From Paucibacter sp. DJ2R-2 (GTDB lineage Bacteria; Pseudomonadota; Gammaproteobacteria; Burkholderiales; Burkholderiaceae_C), in assembly GCF_025717675.1 (NCBI RefSeq), contig NZ_JAJIRT010000004.1, positions 124,001 through 188,000 on the forward strand: a DNA stretch of 64,000 nucleotides, in the 5' to 3' direction. The position numbers were made by a program, and so were the translations under genes. The notes under the pieces are model-generated. The model was given only the letters and a program-made list of their open reading frames with translations, was not told where the DNA came from and did no database searches. Below are positions 1 to 14,211 of this stretch, piece by piece (position 1 is the first letter of the stretch; the number at the start of each line of letters is the position of its first letter).

Positions 1-1567
1 TGGCGTAGCGGCTACGGCCGGTGAAGTCTTCCCAGGCCTGGTTGACGGTCACATAGCGCCCGGCCGCATCGAACATGGACACCGGCAAGGGACTCATCTC
101 CTGCAGCAGCGCACTGAAGGCCAGCTGGTGCTGCAGACTTTGCTGCGCTTCGCAGCGCTCGGTCACATCAACCGCGCTGCCGGCGAAGCCGGTCAGGCCC
201 TGACCGCGGACCTCCTGCAAGGGCAGGACGGACATTTCAAAGCGGCGCAAGCGGCCGTCAGGCGCCACCAGGGCGAACTGGGCCGTACGGGCCTCCTCCA
301 GCGGGCCGCGCGGGTCGAACAAGGCCTGCACTCGCGCGCGGTGTTCGGGCACCACCAGGTCGGCCAAATGCAGGCCCTGGGCTTCCCGGCTCGGCAAGGC
401 GCTGAGGCTGGCCCATCGGGCATTGACAAAGCTGATGGCGCCGCTGGCATCGGTGCGGAACACAAACTCCTGCAGGCTGCGCAGCAGCACGCGCAATTCG
501 TGCTCACGCGCCGCTACCCGTTCATGTGCCCGGCTCAGTGCAGCCCGCCCGCGTGCACTGTTGCTCAAGCTGCGCAAGACCACCCAGGTCGCTCCGGCGA
601 TCAACAAGGTGCCAGCCGCTGCAATGCCAAGCAAGACGTAGAGCATCTCACGCCAGCTTTGCAGGGCCAGTTCCATGGGCTGCTCGACCAGCAGCACCAG
701 CGGGCGGGTGCGCGAGGCACGGAAGGCCACCACCTGGGTTCCTGCGACCGCACCGGCACCCACATAACTGCCAAATTCACGGGCCGGCAGCCAGTCGCTG
801 AAAACCGGATGGGCACTCAAGCGGCTGCCGGGTGCCTGGGGCACGCTCTCGCTGCTGGCCAGCAGCTGGCCGTCGAAGCTGCTCAGCAAGGCAGCGCCCT
901 GCAGATCGGCCAGGGCCTGGCTCTGGTAATTGGCCAAGGTGTCGGGGTTGATCAAGGCCAGCAGCAACAAGCGCCGGCCGCCACCCAGATTCAGCTGGCG
1001 CAGCAAGGGCAGCATGCTGACCGGCGACGCGACCGGGCCGGCACGCAGATCGCGCACGCCGCGACCGGGCAGCATCCGGCCCAAGCGGTCGCCGCCGTCG
1101 CTGGGCCAGGTGCCCAGCAAGCTCAGCTCGACCTGCAGACCGGCCTCGCCCGCCTCCGAGCTGGCCAGCACATGGCCCTCGGGGCTCAACAAAGCGACAC
1201 TGCGCAGCACCGTCTGCCCCTGCAAGGCCTGGCGCAGCCCGGCCTGGGTCGTGGCGGCATCGGCGCTACTGGCTGCAGCATCGGCGGCCAGCCAGGCAGG
1301 CAGAGCGGGGCTCTCGGCCAACACTCGCAAACTCAGCGAAGCAGCCTCGACGGCACGGGTGATCTGATCCTCAAGCACCCGGCTCATCAGTTCGGCCCGC
1401 GCCCGCGCTGCATTCAGCGCTTCGTTGCGCTCGTACCAAGCGAGCACAGCCAGGGCCAGCAGCAAGGCCAGGCTCAACAGACCGGCAGCCAGATAGACCC
1501 GCAAACGCTGAGACAGAGCCGGCGTGTCGGTGGAATGAAGCATGGCCGAAGAGGAGCTGGGGCCCAT
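1..1567 (-). CDS. Membrane PAS-domain sensor protein (partial, 3' end beyond the window)
   Basis: The frame starts at an ATG five bases after the upstream HD-GYP stop codon and is open to the left edge, so at least 522 codons are present and the C-terminus is missing. Residues about 22-42 form a first membrane helix. A roughly 265-residue extracytoplasmic region follows, with the length and pattern of a dCache-like sensor. A second helix lies near residues 309-330 (VLLGIAAAGTLLIAGA). Two PAS domains come next: one around EFVFRTDASGAISFVN and a second around SMFDAAGRYVTVNQAWEDF near the edge. The output domain (histidine kinase, GGDEF or other) cannot be seen. The protein should sense an external signal and pass it on, probably to the receiver and HD-GYP proteins encoded just upstream in the same operon. 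Family assignment is firm; output type is unknown. Confidence 0.85.
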   Translation of the reverse strand, partial: MGPSSSSAMLHSTDTPALSQRLRVYLAAGLLSLALLLALAVLAWYERNEALNAARARAELMSRVLEDQITRAVEAASLSLRVLAESPALPAWLAADAAASSADAATTQAGLRQALQGQTVLRSVALLSPEGHVLASSEAGEAGLQVELSLLGTWPSDGGDRLGRMLPGRGVRDLRAGPVASPVSMLPLLRQLNLGGGRRLLLLALINPDTLANYQSQALADLQGAALLSSFDGQLLASSESVPQAPGSRLSAHPVFSDWLPAREFGSYVGAGAVAGTQVVAFRASRTRPLVLLVEQPMELALQSWREMLYVLLGIAAAGTLLIAGATWVVLRSLSNSARGRAALSRAHERVAAREHELRVLLRSLQEFVFRTDASGAISFVNARWASLSALPSREAQGLHLADLVVPEHRARVQALFDPRGPLEEARTAQFALVAPDGRLRRFEMSVLPLQEVRGQGLTGFAGSAVDVTERCEAQQSLQHQLAFSALLQEMSPLPVSMFDAAGRYVTVNQAWEDFTGRSRYA

Positions 1568-1572
1568 CGTGC

Positions 1573-2367
1573 TCAACCTTGGTCCATCAAGGATTCAAAA
1601 CTGGGCGGATCCTGGTTGATCCGCTCGCGCAGCGCGATCATCTCACTGGCGTTGGCCAACAGCAGATCCACCAACATAGGGTCAAACGCCAGGCCGCGTT
1701 GCTCGGCCAGCATCTGCAGTGCGGTGGCATCGTCAAACGCCGGCCGGTAGCAGCGATCCATGGTCAGGGCATCGAAGAAGTCGACCACGGCGACGATACG
1801 GCCAGAGAGGGGAATTGCCGCGCCAGCCAGGCCCAGAGGGTAGCCGGCGCCATCCCAGCGCTCATGGTGGTTCAAAGCCACCTCAGCGGCCAGCTGGAAC
1901 AAGGGGATGCGGGAACGACCGAGGATCTGTGCGCCCATCAGCGGGTGGCTGTTCATCACGCGCCGTTCCTCGGCGCTGTAGGCGCCTGGCTTTTTCAGCA
2001 CATCATCGGGCACACCGATCTTGCCGATGTCATGCATGGGCGCAGCCCAGCGCAACATTCGCGCGGCCTCCGCCGTTTGGCCGGCCAGCAGAGCCAGGGC
2101 TTCGGCCAGGAAGCCGATGCGCAGGATGTGCACGCCAGTGTCGTCGTCACGGAAGTCGGCGGCGCGCGCCAGGCGCAGCAGTGCCTCGTGATGGGCGCGG
2201 GCCACCTCGCGCAGCGCCTCGTTGCGCTCGTGGTACATGCGGCCCAAGTCGGAGATGATGCATTCCATCTGGGCCGCAGCTGCAGCGTCGAACTGCAGAC
2301 TGGGAGCTTGAAGAAACTCGGGGGCCGCCAGCAGATCGGCCGGATGCGCTGAAGTGGTCATGGGCAT
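1573..2367 (-). CDS. HD-GYP domain cyclic-di-GMP phosphodiesterase
   Basis: The 264-residue protein has an HD-GYP domain over most of its length. The metal-binding HD pair is H112-D113 in MHDIGKIGVPD, and the family signature HHERWDGAGYP is at residues 167-177. Residues 30-65 look like a helical linker. HD-GYP enzymes hydrolyse cyclic-di-GMP to GMP, or to pGpG first. Both signature motifs are intact, so an active enzyme is expected. There is no receiver domain in this protein. The receiver is supplied as a separate gene 37 bp upstream, an arrangement that resembles a split RpfG-type regulator. The membrane PAS sensor starts five bases downstream. The three genes probably form one operon, transcribed leftward from the AT-rich region near 2777-2887. 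Confidence 0.93.
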   Translation of the reverse strand: MPMTTSAHPADLLAAPEFLQAPSLQFDAAAAAQMECIISDLGRMYHERNEALREVARAHHEALLRLARAADFRDDDTGVHILRIGFLAEALALLAGQTAEAARMLRWAAPMHDIGKIGVPDDVLKKPGAYSAEERRVMNSHPLMGAQILGRSRIPLFQLAAEVALNHHERWDGAGYPLGLAGAAIPLSGRIVAVVDFFDALTMDRCYRPAFDDATALQMLAEQRGLAFDPMLVDLLLANASEMIALRERINQDPPSFESLMDQG

Positions 2368-2404: not shown

Positions 2405-2776
2405 TCAGTCGATCAGCCAGAGGGCGGCCAGGCTGTCGATCAGCCGCAGCGGGCTGAAGGGCTTGACCAGATAGTCATGGGCGCCGGCCTTCAGGCCTGC
2501 TTCTTTGTCGCGCGCCTGGCCACGGGCACTGAGCAAAATGACATGGGTGTTGCGCAATGCCGGGTCGGCGCGCATCTGGCGGCAGGCCTCCAAGCCATCG
2601 ATGCCGCCGGGCATCATCACGTCCATGAGCACGTAGTCCGGCTGCAGCTTGCGGGCCTGATCCATGGCGGCATCGCCATTGGCTGCTTCGTGGATCTCGT
2701 AGTCTTCGAATTCCAGCGTCATGCGGATCAGCCGGCGGATGTCCGCATGGTCATCGACGATCAGGATCTTTTTCAT
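2405..2776 (-). CDS. Single-domain response regulator (CheY-like)
   Basis: The 123-residue protein is one receiver domain with no output domain. The acidic pair D8-D9, the phosphoacceptor D52 (in VLMDVMMPG), the conserved S83 and K105 (in YLVKPFSP) are all present, so phosphorylation should be normal. It is the first gene of a leftward operon with the HD-GYP protein and the PAS sensor, and likely acts as a phosphorylated partner of one of them. The start ATG follows a GGAGCC sequence suitable for ribosome binding. The operon is divergent from the HTH-receiver gene at 2888. Confidence 0.93.
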   Translation of the reverse strand: MKKILIVDDHADIRRLIRMTLEFEDYEIHEAANGDAAMDQARKLQPDYVLMDVMMPGGIDGLEACRQMRADPALRNTHVILLSARGQARDKEAGLKAGAHDYLVKPFSPLRLIDSLAALWLID

Positions 2777-2887: not shown

Positions 2888-3541
2888 ATGACTGAATCAA
2901 ACAAGCGCAGTGACGAGGACGGTGCCGATTTCAGCACCATGGAAGTGGCGCGCATGCTGGGCTTGGCGGTGCGCTCGGTCCAGCTGATGGTGGACCGCGG
3001 AGAACTGACTGCCTGGAAGACGCCTGGCGGGCACCGCCGGATTTCCAGCGAATCGGTACGTGCCTGGCAGCTGCAGCGCCAAGGTCCTGGCGCCCTGGCC
3101 CGGAGTGCCGCGCGGGTTGCCCTGCCGGCCGACAGCGGGCTCGCGGACAAAGCCAAGCCCCGACGCATCCTGGTGATCGAAGACTCGGTGCACTACCAGA
3201 ACCTGATCGGCATGCTGCTCAAGCAACAGTTCCCCGAACTCGAGCTGCACAGTGCGCACGACGGCATCGTCGGCCTGGCCATGGTCGGCCAGCTGCAGCC
3301 CGAGGTGCTGATCGTCGACATCCTGCTGCCTGGCATCGACGGCGCCACCTTGATCACCAGCTTGCGCTCCCATGTGCAGTTTGCGCACAGCCGCCTGATC
3401 GTCGTCACCTCGCTGGACGAGGACCAGCGCCAGCCCTTTGCCTTTGCCCTGAGTGGCGTGCCGGTGGTGCACAAACCGCGCCTGGTGCTGGACCTGCCCG
3501 GCGCCTTGCAAGCGGCACTGGCTGCGGGAGCCGCCGAGTGA
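2888..3541 (+). CDS. MerR/excisionase-type HTH fused to a receiver domain
   Basis: The 217-residue protein joins two domains. Residues about 15-65 form a winged MerR/excisionase-like DNA-binding domain (TMEVARMLGLAVRSVQ, then WKTPGGHRRISSESV). Residues about 93-210 form a receiver domain (RRILVIEDSVHYQNL) with phosphoacceptor Asp in VLIVDILLPGIDG. In most DNA-binding response regulators the receiver comes first; here the HTH is N-terminal. The conserved C-terminal KP motif is present as HKPRL. The protein should be a phosphorylation-controlled transcription regulator. Its stop codon overlaps the GTG start of the receiver-HPt gene, so the two are translationally coupled and likely act in one phosphorelay. 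Its target may include the promoter just upstream. Confidence 0.88.
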   Translation: MTESNKRSDEDGADFSTMEVARMLGLAVRSVQLMVDRGELTAWKTPGGHRRISSESVRAWQLQRQGPGALARSAARVALPADSGLADKAKPRRILVIEDSVHYQNLIGMLLKQQFPELELHSAHDGIVGLAMVGQLQPEVLIVDILLPGIDGATLITSLRSHVQFAHSRLIVVTSLDEDQRQPFAFALSGVPVVHKPRLVLDLPGALQAALAAGAAE

Positions 3542-4335
3542 ACACCCCGACCGACATCACCGGGCCGCGACGCGTGCTGCTGGTCGAGGACGACCCCTCG
3601 CTGCAGCGTTTCGTCAGCATGGTGCTGGAGGACCTGGCGGTCGAGCTCACCGTCTGCGGCGATGTCGGCTCGGCCTTGCTGGCCCTGCAGCGCAACGCCT
3701 TCGAGCTGCTCATCACCGACTTGATGCTGCCCGACCGCTCGGGCCTGGACCTGCTGGCCGAGCTGCAGGCCCTGCCGGCGCTGCGAGGCAGCGCCCGCCT
3801 GGTGGCTTTCAGTGCCGGCCTGCAACCTGAGGTGCGCAGCCGCCTGCAGACCCTGGACGTCGAACGCATGCTGTTCAAGCCCTGCAGCGTCGGCGAGCTG
3901 GAAGCCTGCGTGCTCGAGATCCTGGGCCCGGTGCCGGCGGCCAGCGATGCGCCCGCGCCGCCGCCGCCGCCGCCGCCGCAGCAGCCCGCGCTGCAGGCCG
4001 ACCAGGAGGCCATCTTGCGCAATTTCGGCGGTGACGCGGCGCTCTACCGCGGCTTCCGCGCCGCCAGCCTGGAGCAGTTCGGCCAAGACCTGCAGGAAGG
4101 CGAACGCGCCTGCACGACTCGCGACACCCCAGCGCTGCGGCGCCTGGCCCACAGCCTCAAGAGCGTGCTCCTGATCCTCGGCCTGGACAGCAGCAGCGAC
4201 CTGGCCAACCGCCTGGAACGGCAGCTCGAGCAGTCGCTGAACGCGGGCGCCGCCTGGCCGGCCGAGGCCGACGGCTTGTGGCAAGAGCTCAGCCTGCAGC
4301 TGCGCGCCATCCGGGCCGAAACGCCCGAGCCATGA
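3538..4335 (+). CDS. Receiver-HPt phosphorelay protein
   Basis: The 265-residue protein starts at a GTG that overlaps the stop codon of the preceding gene. Residues 11-130 are a receiver domain (VLLVEDDP, phosphoacceptor D61 in LLITDLMLPDRSG, K114 in LFKP). A proline-rich linker with seven consecutive prolines (about residues 141-147) follows. Residues about 155-262 look like an HPt domain with the phosphorylatable H205 in RLAHSLKSVL. Such a protein can take a phosphoryl group on Asp and pass it through His, or act as a phosphate sink. No histidine kinase gene sits directly beside it, so its donor may be the PAS sensor encoded divergently. The proline run would normally call for EF-P during translation. 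The stop codon overlaps the ATG of the sigma factor gene. Confidence 0.88.
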   Translation: MNTPTDITGPRRVLLVEDDPSLQRFVSMVLEDLAVELTVCGDVGSALLALQRNAFELLITDLMLPDRSGLDLLAELQALPALRGSARLVAFSAGLQPEVRSRLQTLDVERMLFKPCSVGELEACVLEILGPVPAASDAPAPPPPPPPQQPALQADQEAILRNFGGDAALYRGFRAASLEQFGQDLQEGERACTTRDTPALRRLAHSLKSVLLILGLDSSSDLANRLERQLEQSLNAGAAWPAEADGLWQELSLQLRAIRAETPEP

Positions 4336-4913
4336 GTCCACGGCGTCCGGCGGCCAATGCCCTCGAGCCCGGCGCGGCCGAGCCTCAATTCGCAGAGCTG
4401 TACGAAGAGCTCAAGCAGATCGCCCGCGCGCGGCTGCGCCGCGCCGGCCCGACACGCCTGCACCTGAACACGACCGCGCTGGTGCACGAGAGCTTTCTAC
4501 GCCTGAACCGCAGCGATGCCGGGCCCGAGCCCGGGCCCAGGTCCGGCCCCCGCTTTGCCAGCTCCGGCCATTTCCTGGCCTACGCTGCCCGGGTCATGCG
4601 CTCGGTGATCGTCGACCTGGCGCGCGAACAAGCGGCCGAGCAACGCGGCGGCGGCCAGGCGGATCTGAGCTTGGACACCGAAGGCCTGGCCGCCCTGCCC
4701 GGCGCGAGTCCGGAGCCGGCCGTGCTGGCGGTGCATGAGGCCTTGCTGGCTTTGCAAGAGCTGGAGCCGCGCCTGGCCCAGGTGGTGGAGCTGCGCTATT
4801 TCGGCGGGCTCAGCGAGGGCGAAATCGCCAGCAACCTGGGCCTGACCGAACGCACCGTCCGGCGCGACTGGCAAAAAGCCCGCGCCTTGCTGCTGAGCAT
4901 GCTCACGGCTTGA
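4332..4913 (+). CDS. ECF sigma factor, TIGR02999/ECF43-like
   Basis: I chose the ATG at 4332, which overlaps the preceding stop codon (ATGA), giving 193 residues. Region 2 spans about residues 18-95 and region 4 about 125-190 (ELRYFGGLSEGEIASNLGLTERTVRRDW). In region 2.2 the usual acidic DxED-type stretch is replaced by NTTALVHE (residues 46-53), so the surface that contacts core RNA polymerase lacks its negative charge. In the ECF43 family (EcfP of Vibrio parahaemolyticus, EcfK of Xanthomonas) a kinase restores that charge by phosphorylating a threonine here. T47 or T48 would be the equivalent. A membrane Ser/Thr kinase gene converges on this gene. Family assignment is strong; the regulatory mechanism is inferred from the family. 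Confidence 0.9.
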   Translation: MSPRRPAANALEPGAAEPQFAELYEELKQIARARLRRAGPTRLHLNTTALVHESFLRLNRSDAGPEPGPRSGPRFASSGHFLAYAARVMRSVIVDLAREQAAEQRGGGQADLSLDTEGLAALPGASPEPAVLAVHEALLALQELEPRLAQVVELRYFGGLSEGEIASNLGLTERTVRRDWQKARALLLSMLTA

Positions 4914-7167
4914 ACGGCGGCACGGCCGCAGCGCTCCATGCACAAGCAGCCACCGCGCTGCGCAGCAAGGCGGCACGCCCATCCATGGGCCCGTGCGGCA
5001 GGTGCGGCCCCGACGCGACGCCGCTCAGCGCCGGCTCCGGCCAGGCTTCACGCCACAGGCGCTCGGCCTGCGCCCAGGCTTGGGCCTGCAGCGGGCCGGC
5101 CGGTGTGGCGCAGCCCAGCTGCAGTCGCTGCGCGAGCACAGCCCAGGCCAGCGGGTTGCGCAGGCCGATGCTGCCGCGCAGCAAGACCACGGCTTGATCC
5201 AAGTCCTCTCTAGGCCCGCTGCTGGCCTGAGGCAGGGCCGAGCGGACCTGTGCGCGCAGCGCCAGCAAGCGGGCGTGGTCCAAGGCGATATAGGGCTCGG
5301 CTTTGGACAGCAAGGCCAAGGCCTGATCCACGGTGAGCAGCGCCGCATTTGCATCGCCTGCCTGAAGCTGCAAGGCGGCCCAGTGGCTGAGCGCGGCGAT
5401 GCGGCCACTGTCCTGCGGCGCCGCCTCGGCATACAGGCGCAGCGCTTGTTGCAGCACGGCACTGCGCTCGCTGATGGCGGCACCGCGCTCGACCAGCACA
5501 TCATGGCGCGCCAGGGTCCACTCGGCGCGCAAGAGGCCGGTGGCGGGCAGCTGCGTGTCCAGCTCGCCCAGCACCCGAGCCGCGGCCTCGCGCTGATCCG
5601 CCGACCACAAGGCCCAGAACAAGGAGAGGCCGGCCTCCGTGCTGCGCGCATGACCCGCCCCGAGGCGCTGCTTGAGCAGGCGCCAGCGCAAGCCCGCAAG
5701 CTCCAAGCTGCGCACCTCATCGCTGAGATAAACCGCCACCGTGGCGCTGAGCCGCAAGAGCTCCTCGGCCAGCTCGGGGTCGCTGGGCAGGCGTTGCTCG
5801 ATCTGCGCCATCTGCTGCTGCAGCAGGCGGCGCATGCCGGCGGCGGGATCCTGGGCATCGGCCTGGCGCGGATCCAGGGTCTTGAAAAGTTCCAGCAAAT
5901 AGGTCTTGATGGCCTCGGCGCGCCGCGCCTGTTCGGCCGCCTCGCGCGCCTGCCACCAGCTGCTCGCCAGCCCAAGACCGAGGCTGAGGCTGACCGCCCC
6001 CGCCGCCGTCAGCAGCAGCCAATGCCGGCGCGCCGCCTTGAGCTGGCGCGCCAGCCAGGAGATGCGGCGCGCCTGCAGCGGCAGGCCGGCCAGGTGGCGA
6101 CCGATGTCATCGCTGAAGGCCTGGACCGAGCCATAGCGCTGGGCCGGTTCGCGCGCCAGGGCCTTGGCCAGCAAGGCATCGATATCGCCGCGCAGCCAGC
6201 GCTGCAGGCGCCGCCGGCTCAAGCCGCAGTGCTCGGCATGACCGGGCTGCACCGACTCGGAGGCCAGCAAGGGGCCGGCGCTGTCTGGCACGGGCGGGCG
6301 GCCACAAAGCAGTTCCTGCAGCACCGCCCCCAGTGCGTAGACATCGGTGGCCACGCTGATAGGGCCGCCCTGGACCTGTTCGGGCGCGGCATAGGCAGGC
6401 GTCGCCAGCAGCAATCGGCTCGGCTCGCCCAGCGCGGGCTCGGGCCGCAGCAGCTTGGCAATGCCGAAGTCCAGCAGCTTGACCTCGCCATGCTCAGTCA
6501 CCATCAAATTCGACGGTTTCAGGTCCCGATGCACCAGCAAGCAACCATGGGCATGCTGCACCGCCGCCATCACCTGCTGCATCAGGCGCAAGCGCTCCCG
6601 TGGCGCCAGCGCCCGGGCTTGGCAGTGGGCGCTGAGGCTCAGGCCCGGCACATATTCCAGCGCCAACCAGGGCTGCAGCTCGCCACCAGGCAGCTCGGCC
6701 GTGCCGGCGTCATAGAACTGGGCGATATGGGGGTGCTGCAAGGCCGCGAGGATGTCGCGCTCCTGGGCAAAGCGCCGCCGCCCCTGGCCCAGCAAAGCCA
6801 GGGCAAGGGGCAGCTTGAGCGCCACCTGACGCTGGTATGCGCCGTCACAGCGCTCGGCCAGCCAGACCTCGCCCATGCCGCCCTGTCCCAGTCGGCGCAC
6901 AAGGCGCCAAGGCCCCAGCACCTGCTCCGGGCTGAACTCAGGCTCGCCCCCCGTCTCGCTGCCCAGCAGCGTGGCGGGCAGCTCCAGGCGCGGCTTCGTC
7001 GGCCCGTCCTGCGCCAGCACCCGAGCCAGGGCTGGGCGCAAATGCAGCGCAGCGGGCGGCAGCGCCTGCAACCAAGCGGCGCGCTCAGCCTCCGGCAGAT
7101 CCAGGGCCGCATCCAGCAGGGCCGAGAACTCGGGCCAATCCACAGCGGCGCAGGGCAAGCTCGTCAT
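4903..7167 (-). CDS. Transmembrane Ser/Thr protein kinase with TPR-like C-terminal region
   Basis: The 754-residue protein carries a Hanks-type kinase domain at about residues 86-360. Visible motifs are the glycine loop LGQGGMGEVW, catalytic Lys118, HRDLKPSN (213-220), DFG (233-235) and APE (261-263), all intact. One membrane helix lies near residues 382-403. The remaining 350 residues are helical, Ala/Leu-rich and TPR-like, and would face the periplasm. The gene converges with the ECF sigma gene and the two coding ends overlap by 11 bp. Kinase-ECF neighbours of this type form signalling pairs in which the kinase phosphorylates the sigma factor in response to an envelope signal. The first 85 residues are a short N-terminal extension common to these kinases. 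Kinase function is firm; the substrate is inferred. Confidence 0.93.
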   Translation of the reverse strand: MTSLPCAAVDWPEFSALLDAALDLPEAERAAWLQALPPAALHLRPALARVLAQDGPTKPRLELPATLLGSETGGEPEFSPEQVLGPWRLVRRLGQGGMGEVWLAERCDGAYQRQVALKLPLALALLGQGRRRFAQERDILAALQHPHIAQFYDAGTAELPGGELQPWLALEYVPGLSLSAHCQARALAPRERLRLMQQVMAAVQHAHGCLLVHRDLKPSNLMVTEHGEVKLLDFGIAKLLRPEPALGEPSRLLLATPAYAAPEQVQGGPISVATDVYALGAVLQELLCGRPPVPDSAGPLLASESVQPGHAEHCGLSRRRLQRWLRGDIDALLAKALAREPAQRYGSVQAFSDDIGRHLAGLPLQARRISWLARQLKAARRHWLLLTAAGAVSLSLGLGLASSWWQAREAAEQARRAEAIKTYLLELFKTLDPRQADAQDPAAGMRRLLQQQMAQIEQRLPSDPELAEELLRLSATVAVYLSDEVRSLELAGLRWRLLKQRLGAGHARSTEAGLSLFWALWSADQREAAARVLGELDTQLPATGLLRAEWTLARHDVLVERGAAISERSAVLQQALRLYAEAAPQDSGRIAALSHWAALQLQAGDANAALLTVDQALALLSKAEPYIALDHARLLALRAQVRSALPQASSGPREDLDQAVVLLRGSIGLRNPLAWAVLAQRLQLGCATPAGPLQAQAWAQAERLWREAWPEPALSGVASGPHLPHGPMDGRAALLRSAVAACAWSAAAVPPFKP

Positions 7168-7202: not shown

Positions 7203-8087
7203 TCAGGACTGCGGGCCGCGCCGTTGCTGAAGCCTCAGGCCCAGGCCCAGCAGGCCGAGCGCCAGCAGCGCCGCGCTGGAGGGCTCGGGCACGGCGCTGA
7301 CCGTGAAGTCATGCCCGCTGGCGCCGACCGTGTTGAGCGCCGCCACAGAAGGGCGCAGATAGAAATTCGCCGTGTGGCTGAAGTCGGACTGAGCCCAGCG
7401 CGCCAGAGTGGCACTGGAGTCGACCGAGGCGCTCGCGTACAACATGCCCGAGACCATCAAAGAATGGCCCACCTCGGTGTCCAGAGCCAGGCTGTACCAG
7501 CCCGTGCTCTGCGTCTTGGCGTTCCAGCTGAAGATCTTCTGGGTGTTGCTGGTCCGGTCGGTGAGGCGAATTTCGGCCACGCCGTCGACGGCCAAGTGCC
7601 CACCCACCTCGAAAGAGGGCTGACTGATCTGCCCCTCGATCCACAGCAGCAATTCATAGCGCACCGGCGCACCCGGCGCCAGGCCCGCGCCCTGAACCTG
7701 CACGGTGTCGGCAAAGGTGGCCTGGGCTGTGCCGAAAGAGTAGCCGTAGTAATACGGCGCCGGGATGCCGCTCGGGTAGGCCGATTCGGCAAAAGCCTTG
7801 AGCCGGCCCATCGAGGCCTCCAGGGTGGCCCAGCCATAGCCGCCATTGCTGCCATCGACCCGGGCCGCCAGGCTCTGCGGCACTTGCGCCTCGGGCTGGT
7901 CCATCCAGTTGAAGTGCTCGGTGCGCTGGAGGTCCTCGCGCGGCCCCGGCGCAAAGGTCGAGGCCAGGGTGTTGACATGGCCGGTGATCTGGTAGTTCTG
8001 GGCCTGCGCCCCGGCCGCCGCCAACAGCAAACCCAGCGTCAGGCACAAGCCCGCGCCGCTGCGTGTCATCGAATTCTGGGTCTTCAT
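7203..8087 (-). CDS. PEP-CTERM sorting domain protein
   Basis: I chose the ATG at 8087 because AAGGAG lies eight bases upstream; the open frame continues to 8288 without a ribosome site. The 294-residue protein has a signal peptide (LTLGLLLAAAGAQAQ) and ends with a PEP-CTERM signal: VPEPSS, a hydrophobic helix, then an RLQQRR basic tail. Such proteins are exported, cleaved and sorted by an exosortase (EpsH/XrtA family), often in strains that make exopolysaccharide. The exosortase is not in this window. The middle region (residues about 30-265) is beta-rich and not recognised. The gene lies 101 bp downstream of the LuxR-type regulator gene on the same strand and may be its target. Confidence 0.88.
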   Translation of the reverse strand: MKTQNSMTRSGAGLCLTLGLLLAAAGAQAQNYQITGHVNTLASTFAPGPREDLQRTEHFNWMDQPEAQVPQSLAARVDGSNGGYGWATLEASMGRLKAFAESAYPSGIPAPYYYGYSFGTAQATFADTVQVQGAGLAPGAPVRYELLLWIEGQISQPSFEVGGHLAVDGVAEIRLTDRTSNTQKIFSWNAKTQSTGWYSLALDTEVGHSLMVSGMLYASASVDSSATLARWAQSDFSHTANFYLRPSVAALNTVGASGHDFTVSAVPEPSSAALLALGLLGLGLRLQQRRGPQS

Positions 8088-8188
8088 CTTCCGCTCCTTG
8101 AATGTCGAACGCGCACCATGCGCACTCGCTTCAAGCCAACGGAAACCGGGCGCTGAACCCGGACATGAGGAACTAGGGGGGCAGACCT

Positions 8189-9949
8189 TCAGACGCCGCT
8201 GTGCAGCATGCCCAGGGTGCGTGCACGTGTCACCGCATGGCGGCGCGAACCGGCGGCCAGCTTGCCGTACAGGCCCTTGAGGTGCCATTTCACCGTCTCG
8301 GTGCTGACCCCCAGGGACTGGGCAATTTCCTTGTTCGAGTAGTTGCGCGCCAGCAGTTGCAGGATCTGGCTTTCCTTGGGCGTCAGCGCCTCGCTCGACG
8401 CCGCGGGGCTGAGCAAGCGCGGTGCCAGGCTCGGCTCCGCTGGCGTGGCTTGCGGGCTCAGGCTGCGGTAGCCGAGCAGGTGCAGCATGGTGCGCGGGTT
8501 CTTCAGCTTCATGGCGTCGCCCTGCTCATGGGCCAGGCGCGCCATGCGCGAGTAGGAATAGGCTTGCGCCATTTCGTCGGCCTCGGCCCAGGCATCGGCC
8601 AGATAGTCCAGCAAGGCCGGCGGAGGCTTCCAACCGGCGATGTTCAAGCCCCGGTTGAGCGCGGTCTGGGCGTAATGGATGGGCGCGCTGGGCGCCGTCA
8701 TGCCCGGCGGGGGCGGCAGGCGGGCGCCGCTGTGGCGGTGCACCTCGGCCAGGGCCTCGGCGAGATCCACCGCCAGGGCCGAATAACCGAAGCGCTCGAT
8801 CAGCTCCTGGGCCTCGGCAATGGCGGCCAAGGCCGCCTCGGTGCCGCCCAGCTGCGCCAAGGCGCGGGCCTGACGCACCAGATTGAGGGCCAGATTGACA
8901 TTGGACTGGGCCGCACGGTAGAGCGCGATGCCCTCTTTCATCACCTCGATGGCTGCCGGCGCCTGGCCCTGAGCCAGCAGGGTCAGGGCCAGCTCGCTGC
9001 AGGCGAAGGCCTTGGCTGTGCCGGGCGGCGCCACCCGCAGCAAGGCCAGCGCTTCGTTGAGCACGGACTGACTTTCCTCAAAGCGACCCAGGTGGCGCAA
9101 GACGCGGCCGATCTGGGTCTGGCTGGTGCCCATCAGCACCGGCCACCCGGTGCGCGCGGCCAGCTCGGCCGCCTGCTCGAAGCAGCTGCCGGCATTGTTG
9201 AGGTCGCCCAACTCGAGCCAGGCATTGCCGGCATTCATGGTGATGATGCAAACGAAACGGCGCATGCCCATGCTGCGGGCCAACTCGGCGGCGCGCAGAA
9301 ACAGGCCGGCAGCCGTGGCGGGCTCGCGCAGGCAGAGCGGAAAAGCCTGGGCCGCCAGTTGCCAGGCTTCGCTGGCCGGGCCGCCGCTCGCAACGGCGGA
9401 ACCCAGGCCTAGGTCTTGCTGGCGCGCCAGGTCCTGGTGGGTCTGGCTGAGGCTGAACTCGCTGCAGGCAACTCCGCGCGCGATGCCGGCTCGTTGGGGG
9501 TCGCCACTGGCCGCGGACTGGATCTCGGCCTCGCGCAAGGCCTGCAGCTCGCGGCTGCGTTCGCCAGTGGCTTTCGCCAAGGCCGCTTCGACCAGGCAGG
9601 CGTCACAGGCGGCGGCCGGGTCCGGCGCCAGCCGCAGCTGGGCACGAGCACGCGCGAGTTGAGCCTCGGCCTCGTCCAAGCGGCAGAAATGCACGGCGAT
9701 TTCACCGGCCGCCAGCGCCAACCTCAAGGCCAGGCCGGCCGCCTCTTGTGCGCTCAAGGGCCGGCCCGCGGCCTCGAAGATGGCCTGACGACGCTCACAT
9801 TCAGCAATCAGCTTGAGCGCACGCAGGCTGTCGCGCTGGCGCAAATGCCAAGCCAGGGCGGCCACCAGCTGCAGGCGCTCCACCCCGGTGGCTTCTTCGA
9901 GCGCCAGTTCCAGCCGCGCCAGTTCGTCGTCGCACAGCTCGTACTTCAT
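8189..9949 (-). CDS. LuxR-family transcriptional regulator with TPR-like repeats
   Basis: The 586-residue protein has a C-terminal LuxR/NarL HTH (LTPKESQILQLLARNYSNKEIA, followed by STETVKWHLKGLYGKL) in the last 65 residues. The preceding 500 residues are alpha-helical and contain TPR-like repeats, for example around AGSCFEQAAELAART. There is no Walker A motif, so it is not a complete MalT/LAL-type ATPase regulator; it resembles only their TPR and HTH parts. The TPR region probably binds a partner or ligand. Its neighbours are a PEP-CTERM gene downstream and, divergently, the exported metalloprotease unit. Both are plausible targets, but nothing in the sequence proves this. Confidence 0.87.
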   Translation of the reverse strand: MKYELCDDELARLELALEEATGVERLQLVAALAWHLRQRDSLRALKLIAECERRQAIFEAAGRPLSAQEAAGLALRLALAAGEIAVHFCRLDEAEAQLARARAQLRLAPDPAAACDACLVEAALAKATGERSRELQALREAEIQSAASGDPQRAGIARGVACSEFSLSQTHQDLARQQDLGLGSAVASGGPASEAWQLAAQAFPLCLREPATAAGLFLRAAELARSMGMRRFVCIITMNAGNAWLELGDLNNAGSCFEQAAELAARTGWPVLMGTSQTQIGRVLRHLGRFEESQSVLNEALALLRVAPPGTAKAFACSELALTLLAQGQAPAAIEVMKEGIALYRAAQSNVNLALNLVRQARALAQLGGTEAALAAIAEAQELIERFGYSALAVDLAEALAEVHRHSGARLPPPPGMTAPSAPIHYAQTALNRGLNIAGWKPPPALLDYLADAWAEADEMAQAYSYSRMARLAHEQGDAMKLKNPRTMLHLLGYRSLSPQATPAEPSLAPRLLSPAASSEALTPKESQILQLLARNYSNKEIAQSLGVSTETVKWHLKGLYGKLAAGSRRHAVTRARTLGMLHSGV

Positions 9950-10226: not shown

Positions 10227-10865
10227 ATGAAACATGAACACCTGGCCGGGAGTGCGCGCATCGGCGCTGGCCTGGCCCTGCTGAGCGCCCTGCTGGCGCC
10301 CCAGGCACAAGCCACCCAGCTGCCGCCGCAGAACCTGGCCCAACTGATCGCCCGCGCCGATGTCATCGTCAGCGGCCAGGTCACGGCGCTGAAGGACGGC
10401 ATCCAAGACGGCCTGCCCTACACCGAGATCACGCTCAAGGTCAGCAGCAGCGCCAAGAAATCGCTGGAGGCCAAGAGCAACTACACGATCCGCCAGTACG
10501 GCCTGCTGCGCGCGCGCAAGCTCGACGACGGCCGCTACCTGCTGCCCGCCAAGATCGAGGGCATGCCCAACTGGCAGGTCGGCGAACGGGTGATGGCCTT
10601 CATGAACAAGCCGGCGGCCCGCTCGGGCTTCAGCACCCCCGTGGGCCTGGCCCAGGGCAAGCTGACCATCACCGGCAACAAGGTCAGCAACGGCTTCAAC
10701 AACGTCGGCCTGTTCGAGGGCATGGTGGTGACACCGGGCCTGCTGCGCCGCAATGAAGCCCGCATGCTGGAAAACCGCGCCGGTGGTGTGGACCTGAACA
10801 CCTTGCAAGGGCTGGTGCAACGCAGCCTCAAGAACAACTGGCTGGCCACGGGAGCAATGCGCTGA
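10227..10865 (+). CDS. Exported protein, probable partner of the downstream metalloprotease
   Basis: The 212-residue protein starts at an ATG preceded by AAGGAG and has a signal peptide ending near PQAQA (residues 22-26). The mature part begins with an ADVIVSGQV pattern, continues with PYTEITLKV and ends in a beta-rich region with GERVMAFM. From memory, small secreted proteins with this ADVIV...GxV...YTxxTLxV pattern are encoded beside matrixin-like metalloproteases in several phyla; their function is not known to me. The stop codon overlaps the ATG of the protease gene by one base (TGATG), so translation is probably coupled. An inhibitor, chaperone or secretion partner role is possible, but this is inference only. 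Confidence 0.75.
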   Translation: MKHEHLAGSARIGAGLALLSALLAPQAQATQLPPQNLAQLIARADVIVSGQVTALKDGIQDGLPYTEITLKVSSSAKKSLEAKSNYTIRQYGLLRARKLDDGRYLLPAKIEGMPNWQVGERVMAFMNKPAARSGFSTPVGLAQGKLTITGNKVSNGFNNVGLFEGMVVTPGLLRRNEARMLENRAGGVDLNTLQGLVQRSLKNNWLATGAMR

Positions 10866-13447
10866 TGAACACCCACTTCAAGACCACGCTGCTGGCCGGC
10901 CTGCTGCTGGCCGCCGCCAGCGCCCAGGCCGCCGGCCCGCTCTACCTGAACGACAAGCCGGGCAACCCTCAGCCCTTGCGCTGGGACACCACCCAAGGTC
11001 CGATCAAGGTCTACACCGATGTCGGCGTGTTCACCCGCAAGAACGACGGCAGCGTGTTCCTCAGCGCCGAGCAGGCCAACGCCATCACCGCGTTCGCGCT
11101 CAAGCAATGGAGCTCGGTCGCCACCTCGACTTGGCGCGCCCAGACCGACCCGGCGCAGTTCACCCCCTTCACCGCCGTGCCCAGCATCGGTCGCGACGTC
11201 AATGACGCCGCCAGCGCCCAGTTGGTCTATGGCCAGTACAACCAGGGCGGCTTCTACGTCATCTACGACGAAGACGGCCGCGTGCTGGAGGAATTCTTCG
11301 GTGTGCCGCGTGACCAGGTGCTGGGCATCGCCATGCCCGAGTTCGCCGAGGACCGCGACGGCGACGGCTACCCCGAGACCATCGTCAAGGCCACCGCCCT
11401 GATGAATGGCTGGATGGTCGGCCACGAAAGCCCGCCCGTCGGCCAACGCTCGGCACCGCCGGCTGACGTCAACGGGGCGCGTTATGCCGGCGTCTTCACA
11501 CACGAGTTTGGCCACGCCATCAACCTGTCGCACTCGCAGGTCAACGGTCAGCTGGCTTTCATGAGCCAGCCCGGCTACGGCCGCGACCTCTACCCCGGCG
11601 TGCCCGGCTGTGTGGCACCGGTGCACCATTGGCTCTACGGCCCGGCCGCCAGCCATATCGACCCCAAGCAGGTCGAGACCATGTTCCCCTTCATCGACCC
11701 GCAAAGCGTGGCCAAGGGCCGCTCGATCGGCCAGGAGATGAGCACGGTGGACCGCGCGGACGACATTGCCGGCATCTCCAACCTCTACCCCACAGCCGAC
11801 TATCAGGCCCGCACCGGCTCCATCGCCGGCAGCTTGCTGCTCAAGGACGGCAAGACCGGCTTCAGCGGCATCAACGTCGTCGCCCGCAATGTGCGCGACC
11901 CGCTCGGTGACGCGGTCTCGGCCATGTCGGGCGACCAGAGCCAGGGCAAGCTGGGCCCGGACGGACGCTTCCGCATCAACAACCTGAAACCGGGCGAGCG
12001 CTACCAGCTCTACATTGAGGAAATCAGCGGCGGCGGCTACCCGACCCGCCCGGCCATGCTCTTGTCCCAGGCCGAATACTGGAACAGCGGCGAGAGCCAT
12101 GACCCGAAGCTGGACTCGCCCTGCCTGGCCGGCGCTATTGAGGTGCAGGCCGGCACGGTCAGCCCGGCCGACATCGTCTTCAACGGCCACCGCGACGGCG
12201 TGCAGTACGACTTCATCGGCGGTGTCTTCCTGAGCAGCATGTCGGCCGACGGCCAGCGCGCCGGTGGCGCCTACGGCTTCGGCTACCCGCTGTACTGGGA
12301 CGCCAAAGAGGGCATTCAGCTGTTCCCGGAGAGCCTGGACCTGCTGTCTTCTTCGAGCAGCAATATGTCCAGCGATGGCCGCAAGATGCTGGTGGAGGCC
12401 AATTTCGACGGCATCGTTCACACCGACCCCGATGGCTACAGCTACACCATCAAGCAGATGGCGCTCTGGGACTTCGACACCGGCCAGGCCAGCCCCATGG
12501 GCGCACTCAGCGATGAGTGCGGCCTGGGCGGCGCCGCCGGCGTGACCAGCAGCTATGGCTTCGGCATGAACGCCAACGGCACCGCCGCCGTGGGCTACAG
12601 CGGCCATAAGAATGCCGATGGCAGCTGCGTCATGCACGACTGGGACACCGACCTGGGTTTGCAGGTCGTGCCCTACCGTTGGACGGCCGCAGGTGGCGGC
12701 AAGGCCCTGAAACTGGACGGCCTGGACCTGCGCGGCCTGCCCTGGATGCGCGCCAACGCCGTCTCCGGCGACGGCCTCGTGGTGGTGGGCACGGCCAACT
12801 ACACCCGCGCCATTGGCTGGGTGGGCGACGCCAATCCGGTGGACCTGAGCGCCCTGACCGGCGCGATCAGCGCCGATGCGGTCAACTTCGACGGCAGCCG
12901 CGTGCCCCTGGCCACGGCCCAGGGCATGCTGATGTGGAACGCCCTCAAGGGCACCGGCCCAGATGCCTTCACGCCGCGCAGCAGCCCCAAGTACTGCATC
13001 GACATGCCCTTCATCAGCTGGGACGGCATCGACCACTGCGCGGTCGACGGCGCGGCCTGGGTGGAAGCCAATGCCGGCACACCGCAGCTCAACATCAGTG
13101 CCATCAGCGCCGACGGCCGCGTGGTGCTGGCCCGGGCCGGTGACTTCTTCACCATGTTCGCCGGCTTCATGTGGGTGGAGGACATCGGCTGGATCGGCCT
13201 GAACGACTTCCTGAAGAAGCAGGGCGTGGTCGAAGCAGACAAATACGGCCTGGAAAACCCGATCGCCCTCAGCGGCGGCGGGCAGGTGCTGATGGGCGGA
13301 CTGACCGGCGCGCAAGCAACCTGGCGCGTCGATCTGAGCACCGTCTATGTTTGCAAGAACGGCCAGTCAAGCGCCGTCGCTTTCCCGGCCGGATTGAGCG
13401 ACCCCATCAAAGCCGGCGCCAAGCTCGGCCGCTGCGAGAACCTCTGA
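10865..13447 (+). CDS. Secreted zinc metalloprotease with HAF-like extracellular repeats
   Basis: The 860-residue protein has a signal peptide (residues 1-22). The metzincin zinc motif HEFGHAINLSH is at H213-E214-H217-H223, typical of matrixin-like proteases. A calcium-type DRDGDGYPE segment lies just before it (residues about 163-171). A carboxypeptidase-regulatory-like beta domain follows near residues 325-440 (GSIAGSLLLKDGKTGFSGINVVARNV). The C-terminal half has spaced repeats of the type SADG/SSDG + RxxG + W/LWD. These resemble HAF-family extracellular repeats, at about residues 458, 497, 633 and 746. There is no PEP-CTERM or other anchor. It is coupled to the exported protein before it and lies 41 bp ahead of a PEP-CTERM gene. 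It probably cleaves extracellular protein; the substrate is unknown. Confidence 0.88.
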   Translation: MNTHFKTTLLAGLLLAAASAQAAGPLYLNDKPGNPQPLRWDTTQGPIKVYTDVGVFTRKNDGSVFLSAEQANAITAFALKQWSSVATSTWRAQTDPAQFTPFTAVPSIGRDVNDAASAQLVYGQYNQGGFYVIYDEDGRVLEEFFGVPRDQVLGIAMPEFAEDRDGDGYPETIVKATALMNGWMVGHESPPVGQRSAPPADVNGARYAGVFTHEFGHAINLSHSQVNGQLAFMSQPGYGRDLYPGVPGCVAPVHHWLYGPAASHIDPKQVETMFPFIDPQSVAKGRSIGQEMSTVDRADDIAGISNLYPTADYQARTGSIAGSLLLKDGKTGFSGINVVARNVRDPLGDAVSAMSGDQSQGKLGPDGRFRINNLKPGERYQLYIEEISGGGYPTRPAMLLSQAEYWNSGESHDPKLDSPCLAGAIEVQAGTVSPADIVFNGHRDGVQYDFIGGVFLSSMSADGQRAGGAYGFGYPLYWDAKEGIQLFPESLDLLSSSSSNMSSDGRKMLVEANFDGIVHTDPDGYSYTIKQMALWDFDTGQASPMGALSDECGLGGAAGVTSSYGFGMNANGTAAVGYSGHKNADGSCVMHDWDTDLGLQVVPYRWTAAGGGKALKLDGLDLRGLPWMRANAVSGDGLVVVGTANYTRAIGWVGDANPVDLSALTGAISADAVNFDGSRVPLATAQGMLMWNALKGTGPDAFTPRSSPKYCIDMPFISWDGIDHCAVDGAAWVEANAGTPQLNISAISADGRVVLARAGDFFTMFAGFMWVEDIGWIGLNDFLKKQGVVEADKYGLENPIALSGGGQVLMGGLTGAQATWRVDLSTVYVCKNGQSSAVAFPAGLSDPIKAGAKLGRCENL

Positions 13448-13488
13448 CCCTGTGACGAGGCGCTGCCTCGTCCCTACCGGAAACCCCT

Positions 13489-14211
13489 ATGAAACTGCGC
13501 AATTCCTTCCCCCTCCACGCCCTGGCCCTGGCGGCCTTGCTGGGCAGTGCCGCTGCAGCGCACGCCGAGATGACCTTCTACAGCTCGCAAGCCTCATTCC
13601 AGGCCGCCATCTCGGCGCCGGTGGTGGACCGCTTCGACGACCTCTTCTGGGCCCAGGGCCCGGGCTCGCTGTACCGCGAGCCGGGCGCCGGCTACGGCTA
13701 TGTGGTCAATGCGCTGAAGTTCGACGGCAGCGACTACTCGAGCTTCTACAACGCCGGCAGCGATGCCGATGTCTGGCTGTCCACCGACCAGGCCACCGAC
13801 GTCATCAGCTTTGACTTCAACTACACGGACAAGGTCTACGGCGTCGGCGGCTTTTTCTTCGGCACCGACGCCCTGGGCGTCTTTCAGCCGGGCCAGAGCA
13901 TCAAGCTGAACGCCCTGGACGCCGACGGCGTCGAACAGGTGGTCTTCATCGAAAACGCCCAACCGGGCACCTTCTACGGCTTTGCCTCGACCAGCCAGAT
14001 TCGCTACTTCGAGATCAGCGCCGTGCAGCCGGCCGGTGGCCTGACCTGGGTGGCGGCCAATGACCTGGTGCTGGGCACGGTGGCGGCGGTGCCGGAGCCC
14101 AGCAGCGGCGCCCTGCTGCTGGGCGGGCTTGGGCTGCTGGGCTGCGGCGCCGCCCGGCGTTCGACAAAGGCGAAACCCAGGGCTGAGAACCCGAGAAATC
14201 CGCAAAACTGA
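13489..14211 (+). CDS. PEP-CTERM sorting domain protein
   Basis: The 240-residue protein has a signal peptide (ALALAALLGSAAAAHA) and a PEP-CTERM signal, VPEPSS plus hydrophobic helix GALLLGGLGLLG, then basic residues. Unusually, about 16 further polar residues follow the AARR cluster; PEP-CTERM proteins normally end within a few residues of it. The central region is beta-rich (VISFDFNYTDKVYGVGGFFFG) and resembles the beta-sandwich proteins common in this class. It is 41 bp downstream of the metalloprotease gene and shares its operon. A strong terminator-like hairpin lies after it. Confidence 0.87.
   Translation: MKLRNSFPLHALALAALLGSAAAAHAEMTFYSSQASFQAAISAPVVDRFDDLFWAQGPGSLYREPGAGYGYVVNALKFDGSDYSSFYNAGSDADVWLSTDQATDVISFDFNYTDKVYGVGGFFFGTDALGVFQPGQSIKLNALDADGVEQVVFIENAQPGTFYGFASTSQIRYFEISAVQPAGGLTWVAANDLVLGTVAAVPEPSSGALLLGGLGLLGCGAARRSTKAKPRAENPRNPQN

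Follow-up and report, generated by a model that had tools for sequence, protein, structure and literature searches.

Genes at the locus

The window analysed here is the whole stretch of 64,000 nucleotides from Paucibacter sp. DJ2R-2 (assembly GCF_025717675.1, contig NZ_JAJIRT010000004.1, positions 124,001 to 188,000 of the forward strand). Near its left end, a gene for an extracytoplasmic function (ECF) sigma factor of the ECF43 type converges on a gene for a membrane-associated Hanks-type Ser/Thr kinase, and the two coding regions overlap at their ends. The sigma gene closes an operon encoding two receiver proteins, and the kinase gene lies behind a PEP-CTERM gene and a candidate promoter, an arrangement suggesting a sigma factor armed by its own receptor kinase. 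The principal features are listed below.

2888..3541, plus strand: helix-turn-helix-receiver (HTH_17-receiver) protein, first gene of the sigma operon (PF12728, PF00072)
3538..4335, plus strand: receiver-HPt protein (PF00072, PF01627), its stop overlapping the sigma start by 4 bp
4332..4913, plus strand: ECF43-like sigma factor, 193 residues (ATG at 4332, stop at 4911-4913)
4470..4472 and 4473..4475, plus strand: codons of T47 and T48 (predicted phosphosite)
4668..4670, plus strand: codon of S113, a linker residue and possible second phosphosite
4903..4913: 11-bp overlap of the convergent coding ends
4903..7167, minus strand: membrane Hanks-type Ser/Thr kinase, 754 residues (PF00069)
7203..8087, minus strand: PEP-CTERM protein, its gene ending 35 bp before the kinase start in a presumed operon (PF07589, 26.3 bits, cut-off 20.7)
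8136..8165, minus strand: candidate sigma-dependent promoter, TGTCC-N19-CGTTGG
8171..8180, minus strand: CCCCCTAGTT element, just upstream of the candidate -35, from clade comparison

The sigma factor and its candidate switch residues

The sigma protein scores 145.2 bits against TIGR02999 (cut-off 126.15) and 116.4 bits against PF07638 (cut-off 21.1), the type of ECF sigma that we take to be ECF43. The sequence-only reading of this DNA had proposed an ECF43-like sigma partnered by a Hanks kinase, and the family scores, a threonine at the published place and the PknS-like kinase described below all uphold that proposal. The motif NTTALVHE at residues 46-53 (N46, T47, T48, A49, L50, V51, H52, E53) is confirmed in the translation. 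Aligned to DADDLVQE of canonical ECF sigmas from the same genome, N46, T48 and A49 fall on three acids and T47 on alanine, with T48 at the third, acidic position of DADD. The DAED acids are replaced by NTTA with the second threonine retained, as in a QTTA-like motif. The acids of region 2.2 had been described as absent; those of DAED are gone, but E53, the last acid of the region, is kept.

More than 1000 ECF43 sequences have been aligned (PMC13147305); in the passages of that study drawn on here, the consensus at the place of DAED is QTTA, and the second threonine is present in 88%. Across the ECF43 literature passages drawn on here, three members have been studied: EcfP, EcfK and one of Hyphomonas. 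The published phosphosite, according to these passages, is the second threonine of xTTA (STTA in EcfP, T51 in EcfK). Because the published phosphate sits there, T48 is a better switch candidate than T47, although either had been proposed. The linker residue T106 of EcfK is described in those passages as a second, redundant phosphosite, to which S113 may correspond.

Residues were counted in 82 related sigmas, namely those of 80 named loci, the window and genome G006. Thr occupies position 48 in 74 of them, with Gln and Gly in 4 each, and is likewise found at position 47 in 74; position 46 carries Asp in 54 sigmas and Asn in 19, and 72 have Ser or Thr at linker position 113. Loss of all acids, as a rule for the group, therefore fails at position 46. 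Judging from the alignment, acid loss is partial among the relatives, and in the window protein it is complete for DAED only. The convergent kinase probably activates the sigma by phosphorylating it, with T48 as the predicted site. Eight sigmas lack Thr48 and keep Thr47: L094, L095, L103 and L140 read DTQA, and L114, L134, L136 and L154 read "DTG.". All eight have a tandem kinase match and offer natural tests of which residue matters. No anti-sigma family was detected among 12 neighbourhood proteins scanned with Pfam.

A PknS-like receptor kinase

The kinase retains intact catalytic motifs (HRDLKPSN, DFG and APE). Its AlphaFold2 model (mean predicted local distance difference test score, pLDDT, of 80; predicted template modelling score of 0.49; the helical-repeat region confident) places helices at residues 8-52, a kinase domain at about 87-359, a long helix at 383-429 and helical repeats at 441-708. 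The long helix covers a hydrophobic stretch and is predicted to span the membrane; together with the catalytic motifs, this bears out the claim that a membrane Hanks kinase converges on the sigma factor. The top PDB sequence match is 9EED, PknS of Xanthomonas citri (1.6e-51, residues 4-359), which takes in the N-terminal extension, and PknB follows at 1.1e-39. By fold, PknS ranks ninth, its E-value behind those of PknB chains, and has the highest target template modelling score of the first ten (0.84). No tetratricopeptide repeat (TPR) family passes its Pfam cut-off in the kinase, and the C-terminal region is TPR-like by the AlphaFold2 model alone. The modelled layout is that of PknS: an N-terminal extension, the kinase domain, a predicted transmembrane helix and a TPR-like, putatively outer domain.

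The convergent arrangement is conserved within one clade

The 11-bp overlap of coding ends at 4903-4913 had been noted from the letters alone, and it stands: the gene order and the exact overlap length recur in genomes G006 (locus L070), G011 (L071) and G009 (L072, the same locus as L085, Paucibacter sp. Y2R2-4). The G011 contig begins inside the receiver-HPt gene, and the genes that it holds agree with the window order. Because order and exact overlap recur in these three loci, the arrangement is more than chance. This sigma occurs at an identity of at least 73% in 4 of 18 genomes of the genus, the window included; all four overlap by exactly 11 bp and form one clade on the sigma tree (support 100/100). 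The arrangement is thus real and clade-specific, found in four or more related genomes. An even draw of 399 family genomes, searched at E <= 1e-45, contained no clade member besides the window genome, and the next matches reached at most 62%. A protein search returned seven more close sigmas (69-95%), identified from sequence match alone, one of them named Paucibacter sp. DJ1R-11.

In the 80 named related loci, sigma and kinase are tandem in 73, convergent in 4 and divergent in 1, and 2 loci at contig ends lack a kinase match. In 77 of the 80 (the 73 tandem and 4 convergent loci), the nearest kinase match is no more than about 2.5 kb from the sigma. The "divergent" kinase of L161 was set aside, as no open reading frame (ORF) in the gene map lies behind the match. 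Convergent pairs also occur outside the clade, in L160 (with a 71-bp gap) and in L105 and L119 (with a small ORF between). The architecture had been called new; it is real and conserved in the clade, but convergent sigma/kinase pairs are found elsewhere too. The protein type is already known, and what is new is the unusual gene arrangement and the predicted promoter. In L070 and L071, the sigma gene end and the kinase stop both fall within GCTGAGCATGCTCAGC, a perfect 16-bp palindrome of which the window retains 12 bp.

A candidate promoter in front of the kinase genes

The candidate promoter emerged from a comparison of the sequences that precede the PEP-CTERM gene in the clade loci and in the tandem locus L099 (TGTCC-N18/19-CGTTGG; general form TGTCC-N18/19-CGTTSG), and the pattern is present in all four clade loci. 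In the window, CGTTGG starts 54 bp before the PEP-CTERM ATG. When 78 non-clade loci were surveyed with TGTCC-N16-20-CGTTS, the pattern stood just after the sigma stop in 14 and on the divergent side upstream of sigma in 8, giving 17 loci in total; 7 of the 8 with a divergent-side site hold a PEP-CTERM ORF upstream on that strand. None of the 78 has it on the sigma strand in the 260 bp preceding the sigma gene, and a reversed control gave no matches in the two regions where the pattern occurs.

On the sigma tree, the pattern loci and the window clade fall in one group of 23 loci. The pattern is present in 17 of the 19 non-clade members of this subclade (16 of 18 without L099) versus 0 of 59 loci outside it, for a p-value of 2.7e-15 with L099 counted and related loci treated as independent. 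The subclade members L104 and L144 carry one-base variants before the kinase. Ten further fresh loci followed the same division: all three in the subclade have the pattern (two exactly, one with one mismatch, seen afterwards) and none of the seven outside does, subclade membership here coming from a tree built after the pattern search. A matrix trained without the clade loci ranks position 8165 on the minus strand first in the 64-kb window (18.07 vs 15.41). Support for this putative promoter comes from position and conservation only. A sigma-70 promoter scan found none; of 7 hits from a terminator scan (4.0 expected), one coincides with the candidate promoter.

In tandem relatives, the candidate promoter lies between sigma and kinase, on the divergent upstream side, or both, often with a PEP-CTERM gene. 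Since the kinase or its gene group stands behind the same type of site in both architectures and, in the surveyed loci, the sigma gene does not, the distribution suggests positive feedback running through the kinase. No ECF43 promoter motif appears in the passages of PMC13147305 and PMC8103513 drawn on here, and Iyer et al. 2020 (Nat. Microbiol.) may hold one.

Several details of the pattern search bear on how its counts are read. The raw count of 28 matches vs 4 in shuffled sequence is inflated, with duplicates at L071/L086, L072/L085 and L073/L099. Eight other pattern sites were inspected (7 of the 19 in this genome, 1 in G006); seven lie inside called ORFs and one, G000:C12:344558, does not. 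At L088, the divergent site (5438) is followed by no clear gene and could have arisen by chance; a further site precedes the kinase of this locus. In L124, L130, L133 and L093, the kinase ATG follows the CGTTSG between sigma and kinase by about 7-8 bases, and kinase messages in some tandem loci may therefore be nearly leaderless. In the window, L070, L071 and L099, the CCCCCTAGTT element precedes the candidate -35 of a PEP-CTERM gene, and L085 has CCCCCCTAACTT there; L149 has the element without the promoter pattern. The element is possibly an activator site, perhaps for the LuxR-TPR protein encoded nearby. As a genome-wide PEP-CTERM signal it was rejected, with 2 matches in this genome against 5 in the control.

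Association with PEP-CTERM genes

PEP-CTERM ORFs, recognised by a sequence rule for the tail in the output of a simple ORF caller run on the related loci, occur in 21 of 82 loci. They make up 24 of 549 ORFs within about 4 kb of sigma vs 3 of 369 farther away (p = 0.0012), a test from which the sigma bin, with 85 ORFs and no PEP-CTERM among them, and 5 outermost-bin ORFs were excluded. Counted by locus, nearby PEP-CTERM genes are found in 12 of the 23 loci of the promoter subclade vs 8 of 59 others (p = 0.001, with L089, whose gene is 4.4 kb away, scored as not near). These associations suggest that this sigma branch controls PEP-CTERM proteins. The literature, in the parts drawn on here, holds an RpoN-dependent case of PEP-CTERM control. 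The PEP-CTERM-kinase pair and its candidate promoter, absent from the sequence-only reading, are more telling about how the circuit would work.

The receiver operon

The two receiver proteins reported in the sigma operon are indeed there, and 4-bp start/stop overlaps join the helix-turn-helix-receiver, receiver-HPt and sigma genes. Receiver-HPt matches were found in 51 of 299 family genomes, and 30 loci were fetched. Among the best 29 of 50 matches outside the window genome, a helix-turn-helix-receiver gene adjoins the receiver-HPt gene in 29 of 29 loci, with no sigma within 1.5 kb of any of them. Conversely, both receivers were detected beside sigma only in L085 among the 80 named loci (L086 is truncated) and in none of 20 further loci. 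By this distribution, the receiver pair is an older module than the embedding of the sigma gene. Most simply, an ECF43 module would have been inserted behind a phosphorelay operon that was already there, its kinase gene pointing the other way. For the claim that the locus joins a phosphorelay to a kinase-sigma switch, the support is gene order and translational overlap, and a functional link of the phosphorelay to the sigma and kinase is conjectural.

Proposed circuit and competing explanations

From the observed gene order, overlap, switch motif, kinase motifs and promoter distribution, we infer a circuit with the following phosphorylation, promoter use, feedback and signal. Supplied by the receiver operon in which its gene is embedded, the unphosphorylated sigma factor would be missing the acidic residues with which a sigma contacts the beta-prime clamp of RNA polymerase. 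A signal from the envelope or surface would reach the membrane kinase via its helical-repeat domain, and the kinase would then phosphorylate T48 and possibly S113 as well. The sigma factor, now charged, would bind core polymerase and transcribe the PEP-CTERM gene and the kinase gene from TGTCC-N19-CGTTGG (8165-8136, minus strand). More kinase would then give more active sigma, a positive feedback on activation rather than on sigma amount, with the PEP-CTERM protein as output. As a whole, the reading of an ECF43-type sigma armed by its own receptor kinase, with feedback via the candidate promoter, is given a probability of roughly 70%.

Several observations weigh against this interpretation. 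Position 48 is Gln or Gly in 8 of the 82 related sigmas, and the G009 orthologue has Asp at position 46 (DTTT), so that it may not be fully off. In the passages of PMC13147305 drawn on here, EcfK T51A expressed from a multicopy plasmid is still functional; since T106 is a second, redundant site there, T48 alone may not be the switch, which tempers the earlier proposal. The structure model of the sigma factor is mediocre (pLDDT 76), and in a Foldseek comparison ECF sigmas topped the list, none at E <= 0.001. The PEP-CTERM-kinase operon is deduced from the 35-bp gap between the PEP-CTERM stop and the kinase start, the fork of the promoter subclade is modestly supported (89/82), and the p-values assume independent loci. 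A wide regulon was rejected, as the pattern occurs 20 times in this genome vs 31 for the reversed control and falls below control in four others. Of 22 training sites, 21 have a spacing of 18, but the window, L070 and L086 have 19, and a terminator-like hairpin at 8162-8146 (minus strand), which could end the LuxR gene, lies within the window site; these last two points slightly lower our confidence.

How the receiver genes relate to such a switch can be read in more than one way. There is about an even chance that the switch works while the receiver genes are a mere landing site, the module using the transcript of an old phosphorelay operon with no signalling link. The sigma-free receiver pairs elsewhere favour this, as does the absence of any of the eight best promoter candidates of the window from the region before the receiver operon, but four genomes whose sigmas are 69-75% identical have preserved both the gene order and the coupling (a 4-bp overlap, replaced in G009 by a gap of 7 bp). 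A two-input gate is doubtful though possible: sigma activity would be set by the kinase, and the phosphorelay would contribute either through sigma amount or through direct action of its receivers on the sigma or the kinase. The sigma gene does follow the receiver-HPt gene in four clade genomes, with the kinase in a separate group behind a candidate sigma promoter, but the receiver module exists elsewhere without sigma, and receiver contact with sigma or kinase is conjectural. Equally tentative is a three-layer switch, in which the phosphorelay operon would supply a silent sigma, the receptor kinase would arm it, and the armed sigma would transcribe the kinase and the PEP-CTERM surface protein. 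If true, this would give a self-reinforcing, possibly bistable response requiring both signals.

Two further explanations dispense with parts of the proposed circuit. It is unlikely that the sigma factor is active unphosphorylated and controlled by amount while the kinase has other targets. E53 and D115 retain some charge, and the D46 of the G009 orthologue and the functional EcfK T51A point the same way, but the DAED acids are lost, a kinase match lies near sigma in 77 of 80 relatives, and the kinase genes stand behind a candidate sigma promoter. Least probable is that the convergent overlap is itself regulatory, with readthrough producing antisense RNA so that the sigma and kinase transcripts damp each other. 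The ends leave no space for a terminator and the overlap is exact in four genomes, yet an overlap inherited by descent requires no function, and the gap in L160, another convergent lineage, is 71 bp.

Comparison with known systems

The window pair resembles EcfP/PknT of Vibrio parahaemolyticus and EcfK/PknS of Xanthomonas citri in the replacement of DAED (NTTA in the window), in the threonine at the published phosphosite, and in a receptor kinase with an N-terminal extension, a transmembrane helix and a helical-repeat C-terminal region. Unlike them, it is convergent with an 11-bp overlap, its sigma lies inside a receiver operon, its kinase gene is preceded by a candidate sigma promoter and a PEP-CTERM gene, and no type VI secretion gene was found among the 12 Pfam-scanned proteins of its neighbourhood. 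Tandem pairs of Burkholderiales and Lysobacteraceae/Nevskiaceae (for example L099, a Roseateles metagenome-assembled genome; L133, Roseateles puraquae; L132, a Lysobacteraceae metagenome-assembled genome) share the subclade and the candidate promoter, often with PEP-CTERM genes near. They differ in that both genes run in the same direction, the promoter stands between the two, divergently upstream, or at both places, and no receivers were detected beside sigma. The receiver module of the family has the same two genes as the window, and L077 also has the divergent response regulator and HD-domain protein; the module differs in standing without a sigma within 1.5 kb at the 29 loci surveyed.

Because the candidate promoter tracks the sigma subclade across Burkholderiales and Lysobacteraceae/Nevskiaceae, both target and feedback are directly testable. 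With its sigma gene conserved inside a phosphorelay operon, the clade lends itself to the question of whether His-Asp and Ser/Thr phosphorylation converge on a single sigma factor.

Flanking genes and further observations

1..1576, minus strand: 3' part of a PAS-containing histidine kinase (860 residues) that runs off the window
1573..2367, minus strand: HD-domain protein (PF13487), presumably HD-GYP-like by name
2405..2776, minus strand: single-domain response regulator (PF00072), divergent from the sigma operon
8189..9949, minus strand: LuxR-type regulator with TPR repeats (PF00196, PF13424), upstream of the PEP-CTERM gene

The histidine kinase, complete at L197 4495-7077 (minus strand), contains PAS, HisKA and HATPase_c domains, and a Cache match falls below its cut-off. 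A LuxR-TPR homologue stands at the same place in L070, L071 (partial) and L072.

Two more sigmas of this type are encoded in the same genome. One, a third TIGR02999 sigma with the motif SATA (L074 8541-9572; G000:C29, about 98.5 kb), has no called ORF matching the window kinase in the surrounding 16 kb. The other is a second ECF43-type sigma with a tandem kinase and the motif DPTG (L075 8586-11853; G000:C29, about 238.6 kb), a pair for which cross-talk with the window pair is possible.

Within the window, 10227-14211 (plus strand) encodes three proteins that look secreted by eye. One has a zinc-protease-like HEFGHAINLSH motif (PF00413 below cut-off), another is a PEP-CTERM protein (PF07589), and a homologue of the first of the three also lies near the sigma/kinase pair in G009 (L072).

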